Positions 8,164 through 14,064 of a stretch of 56,121 bases of DNA are shown here, piece after piece; positions within the stretch are counted from its first letter, which is position 1, and each line of letters begins with the position of its first letter. The notes under the pieces are model-generated. The model saw only the letters and a program-made list of their open reading frames with translations. It was not told the DNA's origin and did no database searches. Both the position numbers and the translations under genes were made by a program. Source of the DNA: Alphaproteobacteria bacterium (GTDB taxonomy: Bacteria; Pseudomonadota; Alphaproteobacteria; Sphingomonadales; Sphingomonadaceae); assembly GCA_019239415.1 (NCBI GenBank), contig JAFAZW010000094.1:1-56121 (forward strand). The letters are read 5' to 3'.

Positions 8164-8607
8164 ATGCCGCCGGTGCCGGAAGCCGAAGCCGCCTCAGGGC
8201 ACGAGGACGCGAATGCGCCGGAACAGCGGGCGGTGCGGGCGCTCCTCGCCGCCGAGCGCGCCCATGCGCACCGCGCCCTCCCGCCGAGCGACGCGTCGTG
8301 GCGCTTCCTCCTCGCCCTCTACGAAGCCGCGCTCTCCGGCCGCCGCCTGACCCCGGCAGAGGCCGCCGGCGCGGCCGCCGTCCCGCCCGACCAGGCCGAG
8401 CCGATCGCCGCGCATTTCGAGGCGGAGGCCTTCGCGGCGCGGCACGACGACGGCAGCCTCGGCCTCACCGACGAGGCCTCGGACTGCCTCGCTTTCTGGG
8501 TCCACGCCCTGACGGCGCTCGCGCCGGCCGGTCCCTGCGGCGTCACGCCTTCTCGAGCAACCGCAGCGGCTCCACCCCCAGCGCCCCCGCCAGAGCCTCC
8601 AGCGTAG
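8164..8607 (+). CDS. Small winged-helix-like (MarR-like) hypothetical protein
   Basis: This 147-residue protein has a helical core (SWRFLLALYEAALSGRRLTP, AEAAGAAAVPPDQAEPIAAH, then LGLTDEASDCLAFWVHAL) with the helix-helix-recognition-wing order of MarR-like wHTH domains. The tail is Ala/Pro-rich and low in complexity. Codon use matches the GC-rich host. Its last 65 bases overlap the XRE gene on the other strand, so either the C-terminus is shorter in practice or the two genes are tightly convergent. It lies divergent from 7031-8128. The regulatory role is inferred from fold resemblance only. Confidence 0.55.
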   Translation: MPPVPEAEAASGHEDANAPEQRAVRALLAAERAHAHRALPPSDASWRFLLALYEAALSGRRLTPAEAAGAAAVPPDQAEPIAAHFEAEAFAARHDDGSLGLTDEASDCLAFWVHALTALAPAGPCGVTPSRATAAAPPPAPPPEPPA

Positions 8608-8776
8608 CGATGGTGATGTTGCGCTCGCCGCGTTCGATCATCCCGACATAGGTGCGATGATAGCCGCACTGCTCGGCGAGCTTCTCCTGCGACAGCCCCT
8701 TGTGCGCCTTGCGGTGACGCCGGACGTTATCCGCGATCACCTGATGCAACCCACCCAGCTTCTTCGCCTTCCCCAT
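8543..8776 (-). CDS. XRE-family regulator resembling R-M controller (C) proteins
   Basis: The 77-residue protein is essentially one HTH_3 domain. Residues 28-50 (LSQEKLAEQCGYHRTYVGMI) followed by ERGERN and LEALAGALGVEPLRLL closely resemble C proteins of type II R-M systems (pattern LSQExLA...HRTYxxxIERGxRNPS). It lies 58 bases downstream of the restriction gene on the same strand. C genes usually precede the R gene, so this order is atypical. Its codon use is GC-rich like the host, unlike the island genes, so it may be a resident regulator. The start ATG at 8776 is 22 bases from the inverted repeat at 8798-8810. Confidence 0.85.
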   Translation of the reverse strand: MGKAKKLGGLHQVIADNVRRHRKAHKGLSQEKLAEQCGYHRTYVGMIERGERNITIATLEALAGALGVEPLRLLEKA

Positions 8777-8797
8777 GCGCGTGTTGGACGGGAATGC

Positions 8798-8810
8798 AGA
8801 CTATGCGTCT
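8798..8810. promoter_or_regulatory. Candidate C-box/operator upstream of the XRE gene
   Basis: AGACTATGCGTCT is a perfect 4+4 inverted repeat (AGAC-N5-GTCT), 22 bases before the XRE start. Another GACT element follows at 8814-8817. GACT/AGTC half-sites are typical of C-protein operators, so autoregulation is plausible. The site is short and the call rests on resemblance. Confidence 0.35.
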
Positions 8811-8834
8811 ACCGACTGTGGGTGGCGGTTGTGG

Positions 8835-9755
8835 TTACCCTATCGCCTTAATGCGCGGAGACAGGCGGAACAGCGTAGTCGCGCAGCGAGCCAGCGGCAT
8901 GCGGTAGAGAGCTTCTGGATCTGGCGAGTTTCGATACTCTTGGTCAAACTCATCCCGGGCGATGGAGTTGAACTCGACCACGTAAACACCAAACTCGCGC
9001 TGGCCGACGGCCGCTGGTACCGGAACGACCTTCATCGCAAGCGCCTTCACATACGCGATAGCAGGGTCAACCAGCGATGCAGTGATGTCGAATGCCTTTG
9101 CGATCTGCTCCCTTATCTGATCTGGAAGTATCCGCTCATTCCTCTGCTTCACCTCACAGGTGATAAAAGTATAGTCAGGGAGGATCTGCTCATCGTCGCT
9201 GCTCGTGTAGCTCGCAATGAAGCTGGCATCGATTTCGGGCTGGGTCTTTATACCCGTCTGCAGGTGATAGATATCGCGAAGATGCTCCCGCTGATCGCCC
9301 TCTGAAAAGAGCGCCAATTGGGTCTCGACCAATCGAAGGTTCACAGCGATCTGAGTCAGCCATGTCTCCTCTGACCGGCCAAGATGACGCGCGACATAGG
9401 GCAGCGATGCCGTTTGCACTAAGTGAACGCGCGTCGCCTCGTCAGGCTCAAAAGGGTCTGGAAAAGGGACGTTTTGGTCTTCCCCGTAGGGTATGAACTG
9501 CATTACGCGCTTCTCGCCATATCGCTGCCGGGCTGTAACGCGTTCTTCTTTGAGCAACGTGGGCCAGTTTTGATTGGCTGATGTCTTGCGGATAACGTCC
9601 TTGAGGAAATTCGCTGGATTGCTCTTACTCAAACTAGCGCCGGTGACGCGGATCGCGTCCACCACGTCGTCGTTGCGAATTATTCCATCTGGGAAATCCC
9701 CTGCAAGGTAGCGCTTACCGAGGTATTCCAGGACCTGCGTCTTTTCAGAAGGCAT
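8835..9755 (-). CDS. PD-(D/E)XK type II restriction endonuclease
   Basis: This 306-residue protein has no family I can name with certainty, but the catalytic core is visible. EID at residues 174-176 is followed, after a variable stretch, by ITCEVKQ (Glu201 and Lys203). This is the D-(X)n-E-X-K arrangement of PD-(D/E)XK nucleases. The N-terminal half (about 1-85) is helical and basic and looks like a DNA-recognition winged-helix region. The gene starts 9 bases after the methyltransferase stop on the same strand, the classic R-M arrangement. Base composition is clearly AT-richer than the flanks, as in the rest of the island. The recognition site is unknown and would match that of the adjacent methyltransferase. 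Confidence 0.88.
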   Translation of the reverse strand: MPSEKTQVLEYLGKRYLAGDFPDGIIRNDDVVDAIRVTGASLSKSNPANFLKDVIRKTSANQNWPTLLKEERVTARQRYGEKRVMQFIPYGEDQNVPFPDPFEPDEATRVHLVQTASLPYVARHLGRSEETWLTQIAVNLRLVETQLALFSEGDQREHLRDIYHLQTGIKTQPEIDASFIASYTSSDDEQILPDYTFITCEVKQRNERILPDQIREQIAKAFDITASLVDPAIAYVKALAMKVVPVPAAVGQREFGVYVVEFNSIARDEFDQEYRNSPDPEALYRMPLARCATTLFRLSPRIKAIG

Positions 9756-9764
9756 GACGGTGGG

Positions 9765-11093
9765 TTACACCTTCACCAGTCGGAGGCGAACAGCCTCAAT
9801 CTCATGCTGCTTCCGCTTCTTGGCACCGCTCTTCCGGTCGCGACGCGAATCCGGCTTCTCTACGCCGAAGTGTTCTGCAGCCTCGGACATCTCCATGTGA
9901 AGCAGATTGGGATCGCCAAGGGGAAGCGGCTGGGAAATACGAGCCGGAGCGATCCGCATTGATTGCATCACCCCAGTCGCGATTGCGCGAGCGAGGGGCG
10001 GCGGTACGGCGTTGCCGATCTGACGCGCGCCATGCCATTTTGTTGCATGCAACCGGAACCAGTCCGGAAAACCATGGAGACGCGCCATTTCCCGCACTGT
10101 GACACACCGCGGATATTTGTAGTGGATCGGTCTCGGGCTCGTGAACGCTCCCCGAGCTCCGTCTGTGCCAGCGCGCAAAGTGTTGGAGACGCCATGCTCC
10201 GGCAGGCGGAAAAACCGGCTTATCGGTTCCACATCCCCCTGTTCCGTCCGCGCGAACCGCTCGCGCGAGATATCGGTATGCGTGGTCCGCGCGCTTGAGG
10301 TCAGGTACTCCGGTCGCCATTCCCGAGGATGGCCGAAATGCCACGCATCGTTCGTCAGGCAGCGCAACTCCGCCGCGTAAGGCGAGGGCTTCCCGTATCT
10401 GGAGATCCGTTGATGATCGCTTTCAAGGAGCGACGTGAAACGATCGGCATCCGGCAAATCTCCTAAGGCTTCCCCACAAGTCGGTCCTATGGGCAGGTTG
10501 GGAAGGAGCTTTCGACTTCCGGCGCGGTTCGTTTGGGGAGCAGGATATTCCGGCACGCGGCAACCCTTCCGAGCTCCGAGGAGGATCAGGCGCTCACGGC
10601 TTTGCGGTACTCCGTAATTTGCGGAGTTCAACACCTGCCAGGGCAACCGCACCTCGTAACCGATCTGCTCGAACGCGCCGACCAACTCGCTCAGGAATTG
10701 TCTCTGGCTGCCTACGGTGAGCCCCTTCACGTTCTCGAAGACGAAGAACCGCGCCTTCAACTCTCCTACGAGACGAACGAATTCGAGAACAAGACTATTC
10801 CTGGGGTCGTCCAAGACCCGATGGCCGATAAGCGAAAAGCCTTGGCACGGCGGCCCACCGAAGACGCAGGCAACTTCCGCATCGGCCAGCCGGGCTTCCC
10901 GCCTAATCCGTTCGGCGGTTAGGCCGACGACAGAGCTGCATATGACGGCCGTCCGCGGGAAATTATACTCGTGAACCGCGCAGTGAATGGGATCGACCTC
11001 TACGGCTGCCGCCACATCGAAGCCCGCCTGCTCGAACCCGAGCGACATCCCGCCCGCACCAGCAAAAAGATCGATGGCAATCGGACGCGCCAC
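9765..11093 (-). CDS. DNA (cytosine-5-)-methyltransferase of a type II R-M system
   Basis: The 442-residue protein has all the main 5-methylcytosine motifs. Motif I is DLFAGAGGMSLGF (8-20). Motif IV is GGPPCQGFS with catalytic Cys83. Motif VI is ENV (120-122). Motif VIII is QSRERLILLG, and motifs IX/X end with RQIGNAVPPPLA. A variable target-recognition region lies between motifs VIII and IX. The C-terminal tail after about residue 390 is basic (KSGAKKRKQHE). It protects host DNA from the adjacent nuclease. The gene sits between vsr (28-base gap) and the restriction gene (9-base gap), most likely as one operon. Composition is AT-richer than the chromosome, a sign of transfer. Confidence 0.96.
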   Translation of the reverse strand: MARPIAIDLFAGAGGMSLGFEQAGFDVAAAVEVDPIHCAVHEYNFPRTAVICSSVVGLTAERIRREARLADAEVACVFGGPPCQGFSLIGHRVLDDPRNSLVLEFVRLVGELKARFFVFENVKGLTVGSQRQFLSELVGAFEQIGYEVRLPWQVLNSANYGVPQSRERLILLGARKGCRVPEYPAPQTNRAGSRKLLPNLPIGPTCGEALGDLPDADRFTSLLESDHQRISRYGKPSPYAAELRCLTNDAWHFGHPREWRPEYLTSSARTTHTDISRERFARTEQGDVEPISRFFRLPEHGVSNTLRAGTDGARGAFTSPRPIHYKYPRCVTVREMARLHGFPDWFRLHATKWHGARQIGNAVPPPLARAIATGVMQSMRIAPARISQPLPLGDPNLLHMEMSEAAEHFGVEKPDSRRDRKSGAKKRKQHEIEAVRLRLVKV

Positions 11094-11121
11094 GGCCTTC
11101 CCTCCCTATCTGCAGAACCGA

Positions 11122-11562
11122 TTACCCCAGCGCGGATGCCTTGTCGATCGATTTCTCCGATCCATCCACAAAAGATTTCAGCCGTTGCAGCAGCTCCTCC
11201 TGATTCCGAGTCTCGCACTGCCAAACCGTCAGACATTGCCAGCCGAGGGCGGCCAGTTGCTCCTGATTGCGAGCATCCCTCGCGCGGTTTGCTGCGAGCT
11301 TCGAGTCCCAGTAGTCGAGGCGCGATTTTGGGGCGAGGCCCTTTGAGCAACCATGACAATGCCAAAAGCAGCCATGCACGAATATGGCCTTTCTGCGGCT
11401 GGGAAACACAATGTCTGGGCGGCCAGGCAAGCCCTTCCGGTGAAGTCGGTATCTATACCCGGCGGCGTGAAGGAGGCGCCGGACGATCCACTCCGGACCT
11501 GTGTTCGCCGTTCGCACCGCTCTCATAATCCGGGTGCGTTGCTCCGGCGTACGCGTGTCCAT
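11122..11562 (-). CDS. vsr: Very short patch repair endonuclease Vsr
   Basis: This 146-residue protein has the normal Vsr length. The catalytic Asp50 is in GRPDIVF, and the zinc/active-site segment FVHGCFWHCHGC is at 61-72. The N-terminus (TPEQRTRIMRAV) is the typical Vsr opening. Vsr nicks 5' of T in T:G mismatches left by deamination of 5-methylcytosine, so it repairs the mutagenic cost of the adjacent methyltransferase. It is the first gene of the minus-strand operon vsr-dcm-R and lies divergent from the GHKL ATPase gene. Confidence 0.95.
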   Translation of the reverse strand: MDTRTPEQRTRIMRAVRTANTGPEWIVRRLLHAAGYRYRLHRKGLPGRPDIVFPSRRKAIFVHGCFWHCHGCSKGLAPKSRLDYWDSKLAANRARDARNQEQLAALGWQCLTVWQCETRNQEELLQRLKSFVDGSEKSIDKASALG

Positions 11563-11743
11563 TCAAGGTTGGTCCATCTGCAGCTACCGGTGAACCCGCA
11601 TGGCAGTTTAGCCCCGTCAGGGTAGGACATCTAGGTTGAGCATATTGCATGAGCAAGCGCCTTCCTGGACAGTAAGTTAGCTCCGACGAATAGCGCTTGC
11701 GCTTTTTGAATGTAGCGGGATACCAACGCCGGAGGGGGTGGGC
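11563..11743. promoter_or_regulatory. Divergent promoter region between vsr and the GHKL ATPase
   Basis: The 181-base AT-richer spacer must carry the promoters of both island operons. It holds an 8-base inverted repeat, GCAAGCGC (11653-11660) and GCGCTTGC (11693-11700), the second arm followed by a T-run. This could be an operator pair or an attenuator hairpin. No clear sigma-70 pair can be fixed by eye. Confidence 0.4.
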
Positions 11744-13108
11744 ATGGTCGACGATCCGAATGGCTTGGCAAGCGACGAGTTGGGCGATGACGAGATTGAC
11801 GTCACGCCGACGCGAGCACTCTTTGTAGAGATGTTGACGCGCGACCTGCTGCTGAATCGCGCAGTCATAGATCTGGTTGACAACTCCGTGGACGGCGCGA
11901 AACGGCTGCGGCCGGAGCGCGATCAACGCTTTGACGGTCTAGAGATCAGTGTAACCCTAAGCAGTGACGCATTCCGGATCACCGATAACTGCGGCGGCAT
12001 CGGCATAGATCTGGCCCGCCGCTATGCGTTTCGATTTGGCCGTGCCAGAGGAATGCCCGCGACTCCCGGATCTGTCGGTCAATTCGGGGTCGGAATGAAG
12101 CGTGCCTTGTTCAAGTTCGGACACGGCTTTGAGGTGATTTCTACAACCGCAACGGACCACTTTGAGCTTCGTGTAGATGTTGATGAGTGGGAGTTGGAGC
12201 CTGGGCCTTGGCGATTCGTTTTTGACACTGCTGAAACCGGCCTCGAAAATCCCGCGGCTAAGACGGGTACCCGCATATCGGTGTCGCCTCTCCGCGCCGA
12301 CGCCCGTGCCCAGTTCGGGAATCCGGCATTTGTGACAGCGCTGACGAGGGAAATCCAGTCTGCTCAGCAGCAGTACATAGACAGAGGGCTGCTCATTACG
12401 GTGAACGGTCGGTCCTTGATCGCGACACCTTGGAAACTGATTCAGGGGGGCGGCATTGAACCTCACATAGTCGAGGACGTGCTACAGCTTCCGAATGGCG
12501 TCGTGCAGAGACGTATCTACGCTGGCCTCGGCGATTCCATGCCTCAGGCCGCGGGCTGGTACGTCTTCTGCAACGGCAGAATGATCCTCGAAGCCGATCA
12601 GTCACGCGCCACCGGATGGGAGAGAGGCGACGACCCAGAGGGCGTCATCATTCCTAAATTTCACGGGCAGTTTGCCAGATTCCGGGGTTACGTGTTTTTG
12701 GATTCCGACAATCCAGCTTTGTTGCCGTGGAACACCACAAAGACAGGCGTTGACGCGGATACCGATGTTTGGCGCAACACCTACGCGAAGATGCGAAGCA
12801 TCATGCGTCCGGTGATAGACGCACTTAACAGGCTTGATGCAGAGAAAGAAGCTCCCGCTAATGCTCGAGCTATAGAGATAGCTCTTCGGAACTCATCACC
12901 TAAGTCCCTGCGTTCCCTGACGAGGCTCGGCGACTTTGTGGTCCCCAGCAAGGCTCCCGGACCGAAGCCGCCACCATGGACTTCAATTCAGTTCAGCCGA
13001 CCAAAGTCGAAAGTCGATCAGCTGAAGACCGCGTTCGGAGCCAGCTCGAACGCGCACCTCGGTGAGCTTCTGTTTGACTCCGCCTACGATGAACACGTTG
13101 GTGAGTGA
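11744..13108 (+). CDS. GHKL (MutL/MORC/Hsp90-like) ATPase of the R-M island
   Basis: Three Bergerat-fold motifs are visible, counted from the ATG at 11744. This start is preferred over the GTG at 11738 because GGAGG ends 8 bases upstream. The N-box is VIDLVDNSVDGA (41-52), motif II is DNCGGI (81-86), and the glycine-rich lid is PGSVGQFGVGMKRALFKFG (about 108-126). The rest (to residue 454) looks like a transducer-type alpha/beta region with no recognisable nuclease, helicase or methyltransferase domain. Asp43 stands where MutL, MORC and gyrase have catalytic Glu. GHKL ATPases related to MutL/MORC are known from R-M neighbourhoods. The gene is AT-richer than the host and overlaps the next gene by 4 bases. 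A defence role is inferred from context. Confidence 0.85.
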   Translation: MVDDPNGLASDELGDDEIDVTPTRALFVEMLTRDLLLNRAVIDLVDNSVDGAKRLRPERDQRFDGLEISVTLSSDAFRITDNCGGIGIDLARRYAFRFGRARGMPATPGSVGQFGVGMKRALFKFGHGFEVISTTATDHFELRVDVDEWELEPGPWRFVFDTAETGLENPAAKTGTRISVSPLRADARAQFGNPAFVTALTREIQSAQQQYIDRGLLITVNGRSLIATPWKLIQGGGIEPHIVEDVLQLPNGVVQRRIYAGLGDSMPQAAGWYVFCNGRMILEADQSRATGWERGDDPEGVIIPKFHGQFARFRGYVFLDSDNPALLPWNTTKTGVDADTDVWRNTYAKMRSIMRPVIDALNRLDAEKEAPANARAIEIALRNSSPKSLRSLTRLGDFVVPSKAPGPKPPPWTSIQFSRPKSKVDQLKTAFGASSNAHLGELLFDSAYDEHVGE

Positions 13109-14064
13109 AGATGGCGGGCAGTTACACAAAGATAGATTATCGTGTTCGGCCCGCGAAATACGCCGAGCGCCTCATGATGGTCGACGCTTTCCGCAGGCTG
13201 CGATTCGGCAGCATTGAAAGCTATCAATATGTAGGGCTAGGGTCCGTGTATTTTACGGATTTCTCGCTGATTCATAAGTCCCTTGGAATAGACAAGCTAG
13301 TTAGCATCGAGAAGAATGAAGAAGACAGGGAGCGATTTGAGGCAAATGTGCCCTTTGCATCCATAGAGATGCTTTGGGGAAATACCTCCTCCGAGCTACA
13401 GAAAGTGCGGCTTGATCTTCGCTCAATTATATGGATGGACTATGATGGCCGCCTTGATAGGTCGGTCTTAGCGGATATCGCGCACATTGCATCTGAGGCC
13501 ACTGGCGGTAGCGTGTTGGCCATCACTGTTCAATGCCGCTTTGATCGTGTCACCCGGGAAGATGGAACCGATGCCTCCATCGAGGCGCTAAGCTCTTCGA
13601 TAGGAGCCGAGAGATTACCAAACGATCTCAGCACAAATGATCTTCTTGGGAAGGGCACAGGCGCGGTATTTCGCAAGGTCATGCTCAGCGAGATCGAGAA
13701 TGCCCTCGATGCGAGGAACGCTATTTTACCTCCGGGACAGAGGATTAAGTACAAACAGATTTTTAATTTTCGCTACGAGGACGGCGTACAAATGATGACC
13801 ATCGGTGTCGTCTTCTACGATGTAGGGCAGCAGGTGTTGCTCGACCTGTGCGGTTTCTCCGATCTTCCGTTCATACGCGCTGATGAAGAGACATTCGAGA
13901 TCGGAATACCGAGACTCACTCCTCTTGAGATCAAGAAGCTCGAACGGCAGCTTCCTCTCCAGGGATCTACGCCTCTTGACCGGGGCGCCATACCCGAGCG
14001 CGACGTCATCCGCTATGCGCGTCTCTACCGATATTTTCCTAGCATCGCTTTTGTAGACTCGTAA
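13105..14064 (+). CDS. Rossmann-fold, class I methyltransferase-like partner of the GHKL ATPase
   Basis: The GTG at 13105 overlaps the ATPase stop (GTGA); an ATG at 13111 is the alternative start. Counted from 13111, YQYVGLGSVYFTDF (38-51) looks like AdoMet-binding motif I. SIEKNEE (65-71, Glu67) looks like the motif II acid, and IIWMDYDG (106-113) like motif IV. The remaining C-terminal 200 residues show no named domain. I recognise the type from annotated 'O-methyltransferase-like' neighbours of ATP-binding proteins but cannot assign a substrate. Tight coupling and shared AT-rich composition make the two proteins a functional pair. It could modify DNA, RNA or protein, or be a non-catalytic nucleotide binder. 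Confidence 0.7.
   Translation: MKMAGSYTKIDYRVRPAKYAERLMMVDAFRRLRFGSIESYQYVGLGSVYFTDFSLIHKSLGIDKLVSIEKNEEDRERFEANVPFASIEMLWGNTSSELQKVRLDLRSIIWMDYDGRLDRSVLADIAHIASEATGGSVLAITVQCRFDRVTREDGTDASIEALSSSIGAERLPNDLSTNDLLGKGTGAVFRKVMLSEIENALDARNAILPPGQRIKYKQIFNFRYEDGVQMMTIGVVFYDVGQQVLLDLCGFSDLPFIRADEETFEIGIPRLTPLEIKKLERQLPLQGSTPLDRGAIPERDVIRYARLYRYFPSIAFVDS

Follow-up and report, generated by a model that had tools for sequence, protein, structure and literature searches.

GHKL ATPases in the neighbourhood of restriction-modification (R-M) genes are a known theme. MORC/paraMORC ATPases combine an N-terminal GHKL domain with an S5-like region and lie near cytosine methylases, Vsr and nucleases (PMC2292703). 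The HEF_HK and Response_reg_2 pair joins a GHKL protein to a partner gene and has C5-cytosine DNA methyltransferase (C5MT) and Vsr genes as neighbours (PMC8011034). In the Shedu protein VcSduA, an N-terminal GHKL ATPase proposed to control the defence effector is fused to a DUF4263 nuclease (PMC12137116), and MzaB of the MZA system is a further GHKL-type ATPase. PbeABCD, found with DndCDEA, consists of other proteins (a PLD-helicase, an ABC ATPase and small proteins) and was described as an exchangeable interference cassette, linked to a DNA mark, that blocks virus DNA replication without visible cleavage (PMC6459918); the latter view has been disputed (PMC10853773). Here we describe a two-gene unit, a GHKL ATPase followed by a methyltransferase-fold protein of family PF20553 (denoted MT35), from an island at positions 8543-14064 of an alphaproteobacterial contig stretch of 56,121 nt (JAFAZW010000094.1; the whole stretch is denoted the window). 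The two genes travel together and were accompanied by DNA-modification genes in all 35 loci collected. We propose, with a probability of roughly 55%, that they form an interference (restriction-like) module gated by the DNA mark of the neighbouring modification system.

The pair is a variation on the known theme, with a partner that is undescribed in the literature searched and with an unusually broad range of marks. Like MORC/paraMORC proteins, the ATPase carries an N-terminal GHKL domain and an S5-like region; the partner is what differs, as the accessible part of PMC2292703 mentions no PF20553-like protein. PF19191 and PF19192 of the HEF_HK/Response_reg_2 pair gave no match at E≤1 among the window proteins, and the partner found here has a methyltransferase fold. 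It is also encoded separately, in contrast to the nuclease fused to GHKL in VcSduA. With respect to MZA, the window ATPase matched the NCBIfam model of MzaB at E 0.041 (12.2 bits; cut-off 850), and no Mza genes were among the PADLOC matches listed for the six predicted island proteins. Neither protein of the window pair matched a PADLOC family at E≤1. Among related proteins, the only PADLOC-DB family matched at E≤0.01 was MzaB (10 of 24 GHKL members, best E 1.3e-6; none of 27 MT35 members), so that the PbeA-D models also remained unmatched; PbeABCD touches the pair in one locus (L021), where PbeC lies nearby. The main text of the 2024 Dnd reappraisal mentions neither GHKL nor MORC nor MutL (PMC10853773). 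The same report names MTaX1 (PF20296) as a partner of methylase-bearing systems. PF20296 matched none of the six island proteins at E≤1 and nothing in the window's own genome, in a search that matched no control genome either. No drm genes of DISARM were seen among the six proteins scanned; the island C5MT was the only one of them to match DISARM methylase models, among others (best 25 of 63 PADLOC families). The open-access literature searched contains no description or name of the pair, in keeping with the initial annotation, which had presented it as a candidate undescribed system.

The GHKL ATPase and MT35 travel as one unit

The two genes of the pair in the window are:

11738-13108, plus strand: GHKL (paraMORC/MORC-like) ATPase, 456 aa; PF13589 (HATPase_c_3), E 2.7e-8
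13105-14064, plus strand: MT35, class I methyltransferase-fold protein, 319 aa; PF20553 (Methyltransf_35), E 8e-92

Related loci were gathered with MT35 as the sole query. Plasmids and phages were searched by tblastn, drawn genomes with PF20553, and contigs of GTDB genomes and of viruses by a pattern scan with smaller MT35 sets (a single-protein scan of the viral contigs found no relative). After removal of duplicates (L017 equals L031, L018 equals L024) and of the short copies L007-L013, 35 loci remained, namely the window, two plasmids, one phage, five drawn genomes, 12 genome contigs and 14 viral contigs. Near kin among them are L044/L045, L036/L038, L026/L027 and L006/L033. The named hosts include alpha-, beta- and gammaproteobacteria, Desulfobacterales, a planctomycete metagenome-assembled genome (MAG) and Clostridium; several of the hosts are MAGs.

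In 32 of the 35 loci MT35 is immediately preceded by the GHKL gene. In the Sinorhizobium meliloti locus (L002) the GHKL gene is also upstream, with an insertion (IS66-like as judged by eye) before a truncated MT35; in L031 and L033 it is cut off, as both loci start at the end of a contig. The junction between the two genes measures -4 to +8 nt in 28 of 33 measured cases; the others are L002 and four longer overlaps (L019, L023, L032 and L040), which probably arise because the open reading frame (ORF) caller picks the first start codon. A small correction applies to the window, where the two genes had been reported to overlap. This holds with the GTG starts given above; the likelier starts are ATG 11744 for GHKL and ATG 13111 for MT35, because of the Shine-Dalgarno-like GGAGGGGG and the N-termini of homologues, and with these the genes abut.

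PF20553 was found in 1 of 60 relatives, 5 of 289 genomes of the class and 5 of 397 genomes of the phylum (the window's own genome, which has a single match, is counted in all three draws, and one other genome is common to the two larger ones). It is thus rare and patchy, as expected for horizontally moving genes. A GHKL profile built from MT35-linked proteins gave seven matches at E≤1e-10 in the 397-genome draw, and the five with E<1e-90 were exactly the five MT35 genomes. Of the five matches in the 289-genome draw, four fell in MT35 genomes; the remaining MT35 genome of this draw, G336, yielded no GHKL gene, and its MT35 begins at the end of a contig. Collectively, these data show that the GHKL ATPase and MT35 travel as one unit, and the recurrence of the pair with R-M/Vsr and other modification loci of unrelated genomes bears out its earlier description as an add-on module.

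DNA-modification genes accompany the pair in all loci

DNA-modification genes were present nearby in 35 of 35 loci: a C5MT in 29, Dnd genes in five and an N6/N4 methylase in one. The C5MT lies within 700 nt of the pair in 26 of 28 measured loci, and at 1.2 kb (L014) and 2.8 kb (L002) in the other two. Of 26 genomes from the window's genus, 16 contained matches to PF00145, the C5MT family, and 14 of these had one to three match rows each; by this estimate, which is no formal test, few random genes would be expected to have such a match within a few kb. In the 29th C5MT locus, a Microvirga plasmid (L003), the pair is embedded in DISARM genes, with drmD and MmeI before it, drmA, DUF1998 and drmC after it, and the C5MT and Vsr genes upstream of drmD. 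One locus (L037, 11055-13673) combines a single pair with two C5 methyltransferases.

No C5 methyltransferase was found in the phosphorothioation loci. Four of them (L021, L022, L026 and L032) contain several dnd genes each; DndA, C, D and E in L021 and DndB in L022 were recognized by name, and the others were assigned from cluster membership and from family counts. Upstream of the pair in L021 are genes for a PbeC-like protein, dnd-associated protein 4 and a PbeA-like restriction helicase. The N6/N4 DNA methylase of L020 matched PF01555 (E 4.4e-49), and an SNF2-like helicase gene separates it from the pair. Vsr was present in 14 of the 35 loci and not found in 21.

A nuclease was recognized in eight of the 29 C5-linked loci. 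PD-(D/E)XK-like proteins of two clusters are encoded, c4 (the window, L002, L036 and L038) and c13 (L002 and L014); L019 has an HNH protein, L024 an AspBHI/Mrr-type enzyme and L003 MmeI together with DrmC. The figure is a lower bound because just 40 neighbour proteins were scanned with Pfam. The L024 enzyme, presumably one that acts on modified DNA, stands beside a C5 methyltransferase (10990-13439), a combination that needs distinct specificities. The cassettes of L034, L035, L040, L041 and L043 show only C5MT, GHKL and MT35, sometimes with Vsr, and lie next to baseplate, tail, integrase, amidase, DnaJ-domain or unmatched genes; on several viral contigs the pair stands beside tail, baseplate or integrase genes. 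Among other neighbours that may be relevant, L028 has a sub-threshold relaxase match, and genes without match are present in L023, L035 and L043. In L039 a 284-aa gene (11062-11916) just downstream of MT35 shows a weak match to Nuc_deoxyrib_tr (nucleoside 2-deoxyribosyltransferase) and is a possible extra effector.

The filamentous Pseudomonas phage PfAC20 (L006, 1-8534) carries a GHKL-MT35-C5MT cassette, and no nuclease is annotated among 13 of its 18 features. Its methyltransferase has been classed under incomplete systems (PMC11878078).

The pair and the C5MT-Vsr genes are separate units

Co-divergence was analyzed after exclusion of the truncated or cut loci L002, L027, L030, L031 and L033, which left 30 loci, and reduction at 70% MT35 identity to 27; for L037 the longer of the two C5 methyltransferases was used, and the cut C5MT of L003 was left out. 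Identity distances of MT35 and GHKL were strongly correlated (r=0.88, Mantel p=0.0005, n=27). In contrast, neither MT35 (r=0.02, p=0.37) nor GHKL (r=0.09, p=0.17) co-diverged with C5MT (n=21). C5MT and Vsr again diverged together (r=0.84, p=0.007, n=8), and the Vsr values for MT35 and GHKL were r=-0.11 and r=-0.18 (n=8). The pair and C5MT-Vsr are therefore two units that have recombined repeatedly, and the pair behaves as a module that has been attached anew to different marking systems.

In a maximum-likelihood tree calculated from the joined pair (33 rows, including L002, L027 and L030), Dnd-linked pairs occur at three places, and at least five partner changes are required over four partner labels. 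The Dnd-linked L021 is sister to the window and S. meliloti (support 100/99); L032, L020 and L043 sit on long branches, and their placement is unsure.

Motifs and predicted structures of the two proteins

The model of the window GHKL protein (pLDDT 87, pTM 0.77) was aligned by Foldseek to TRAP1, SMCHD1 and MORC2 over at least 400 columns that cover the ATPase and transducer parts; query TM-scores of 0.44-0.48 secure the fold class only. Sequence matches in the PDB were weak (E 0.02-0.09), with SMCHD1 and MORC2 on top. Residues Asn49, Asp83, Gly87, Gly114, Gly117, Gly119 and Lys121 are invariant in 24 of 24 GHKL rows, and so is Lys335 of the C-terminal S5-like transducer region. The protein thus has the intact ATP-binding motifs and the S5-like transducer with a conserved lysine that mark MORC/paraMORC-type GHKL ATPases. 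The position of the general base, usually a glutamate in GHKL ATPases, is occupied by aspartate in 22 of 24 rows and by glutamate in two.

MT35 matched PF20553 with 308 bits, far above the gathering cut-off of 27. Its model (pLDDT 90, pTM 0.88) resembles class I S-adenosylmethionine (SAM) methyltransferases broadly, and as the matches are broad and the TM-scores low, only the fold class is secured; a fold search of a viral library likewise returned generic methyltransferases. Over 27 MT35 rows, 18 of 31 tallied conserved columns are invariant, including Gly44, Gly46, Glu69, Trp110, Asp112 and Tyr113. These residues fall within YxGxGS, which we take to be motif I-like, SIE at the end of strand 2, and W(L/M)DYD, which presumably stands at the expected place of motif IV. 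No DNA-methyltransferase family was matched in Pfam, PADLOC or NCBIfam, and a PDB sequence search gave nothing. A likeness to Dam was considered and set aside; it consists of a 32-column hhalign stretch with the N-terminal part of a Dam-family protein at a probability of 7%, a lead at most.

The island in the window

The six predicted genes reported by the initial annotation, four on the minus and two on the plus strand, were all found in place. Besides the pair, the island contains:

8543-8776, minus strand: XRE-type helix-turn-helix (HTH) gene, 77 aa; HTH judged by eye
8835-9755, minus strand: candidate restriction nuclease (cluster c4), 306 aa; EID...EVK motif
9765-11093, minus strand: C5MT, 442 aa; PF00145, E 2.6e-61
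11122-11562, minus strand: Vsr very-short-patch mismatch endonuclease, 146 aa; PF03852, E 7.2e-30; TIGR00632, E 5.5e-44
11563-11737, no strand: divergent intergenic region between vsr and the pair; putative promoters

The minus-strand genes resemble a type II R-M system, in which the C5 methyltransferase, the sole PF00145 match of the window's own 3.49 Mb assembly, is clearly present. The cognate restriction endonuclease would be the 8835-9755 protein. It has the motif EID...E(V/A)K in common with the other c4 members (L002, L036 and L038), a motif that we take to be typical of PD-(D/E)XK enzymes; it matched nothing at E≤1 in Pfam, PADLOC or NCBIfam, and a PDB sequence search gave nothing. The XRE gene product is possibly a C-protein-like controller.

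The island is placed before rplK on AT-richer DNA, with GC contents at third codon positions (GC3) of 0.58-0.68 in five of its genes as compared to 0.94-0.98 in rplK and rplA (overall GC of the window, 0.69). The XRE gene is host-like at 0.86, so that the AT-richer composition with this one exception holds as first described. The grouping of the genes is beyond chance, because the same five genes co-occur on pSymA of S. meliloti (L002, 7788-18092), rearranged and with a truncated MT35; the XRE gene was outside this comparison. Within flanks of up to 1.5 kb, the window's upstream genes were absent next to rplK in 23 loci of relatives, and a NusG-like ORF (by eye) precedes rplK in two of the four relatives with upstream ORFs listed. 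No convincing tandem or inverted repeats were found at the island edges.

Possible function of the pair

We infer a defence role of the pair from its gene company. In the proposed mechanism, the mark of the island would be 5-methylcytosine (5mC), made by C5MT, with Vsr repairing its deamination products. A MORC/Hsp90-like dimer of the ATPase would close on invading DNA in an ATP-dependent manner, and MT35, in complex with it and with its conserved SAM-pocket-like motif set, would provide recognition of unmarked DNA, chemical modification or both. The invader would then be blocked or, where a nuclease is present (in the island, the 8835-9755 protein), passed on to it. The initial annotation had instead the pair sensing damage, R-M failure or phage DNA and perhaps acting with the nuclease. 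The eight nuclease-bearing loci among 29 in a partial scan, the phosphorothioation loci in which no C5MT was found and the 21 loci in which Vsr was not found lend no support to a sensing of damage or R-M failure or to action through the nuclease. A bolder form of our proposal, which we put forward tentatively and below even odds, is a nuclease-free restriction arm that is indifferent to the kind of mark: one complex could be plugged into 5mC, phosphorothioate and N6/N4-methyl marking and would stop unmarked DNA by ATP-dependent clamping or a blocking mark in place of cutting.

Several observations weigh against a mark-gated interference module. The lack of co-divergence between the pair and C5MT argues against the pair itself recognizing matched sequences directly, and points to generic sensing or to a signal that arrives by a different route. 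Aspartate at the general-base position could make ATP hydrolysis slow. The score gap of the GHKL profile leans towards pairing owing to the way the profile was built, the Dnd link of L027, whose contig is cut inside GHKL, is a single adjoining DndA-like cysteine desulfurase, and the methylase of L020 is about 4 kb away from the pair. In L021 the pair may be accessory, because a PbeA-like restriction helicase is already there. Nucleases could have been missed in the partial neighbour scan, and extra genes, such as the 284-aa gene of L039, may belong to some cassettes. Carriage by phages is no proof of defence, because phages carry methyltransferases for self-protection. Finally, a role in modification or regulation would explain the company of modification genes equally well.

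Alternatively, the pair could be an accessory of modification, in which MT35 would be a second DNA or RNA methyltransferase, GHKL would load or remodel the modification complex, and phages would carry the cassette to protect their own DNA from host restriction. The class I fold and conserved SAM-pocket-like motifs of MT35, the modification genes beside the pair in 35 loci, the several phage cassettes without a recognized nuclease and the weak Dam-family stretch are all compatible with this role. We nevertheless consider it unlikely, since the pair also occurs in Dnd/Pbe loci and amid DISARM, where other enzymes make the marks, and since MT35 matched no DNA-methyltransferase family in Pfam, PADLOC, NCBIfam or PDB sequences. 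Less probable still is abortive infection, in which loss of the mark or phage takeover would lead GHKL to activate MT35, and methylation of an essential host tRNA, rRNA or protein would stop growth. Nuclease-poor cassettes do need another effector, the MT35 motifs are conserved, and the structure matches include several RNA or small-molecule methyltransferases, at low TM-scores; yet no toxin family was matched, no immunity gene is evident, and the Foldseek matches reflect the fold in general. In E. coli, Vsr and MutL cooperate. This cooperation (mentioned in PMC2292703) and the 14 loci with Vsr would suit a MutL-like ATPase that aids Vsr in the repair of deaminated 5mC, a role made very improbable by the 21 loci in which Vsr was not found, five of them phosphorothioation loci, and by the lack of co-divergence between Vsr and the pair.

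Should the pair prove to be the interference arm, the same two proteins would serve several kinds of DNA mark. This would challenge the need for matching of restriction and modification by co-evolved sequence recognition and would offer a bacterial setting in which to test a MORC-like ATPase directly for silencing or compaction of foreign DNA. The pair may then be the missing half of some C5 methyltransferases regarded as orphan or incomplete, such as that of PfAC20, which lies directly behind it.

GHKL relatives without MT35

Weaker GHKL relatives in three drawn genomes (G575, G536 and G182) occur without PF20553. Those of G536 and G182 stand alone, and that of G575, a 557-aa protein, is encoded beside a C5 methyltransferase (L081, 6503-9475) in what appears to be a sister arrangement. 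Longer GHKL relatives of 530 aa (L082, 6449-8041; L083, 6476-8068) have no modification gene nearby that the reference set recognized. On archaeal plasmids (L004, 7995-10842; L005, 6895-10823), longer GHKL relatives of about 620 aa have Dam-family adenine methyltransferases instead of MT35 as neighbours, and the one in L005 adjoins dptF/dptG.

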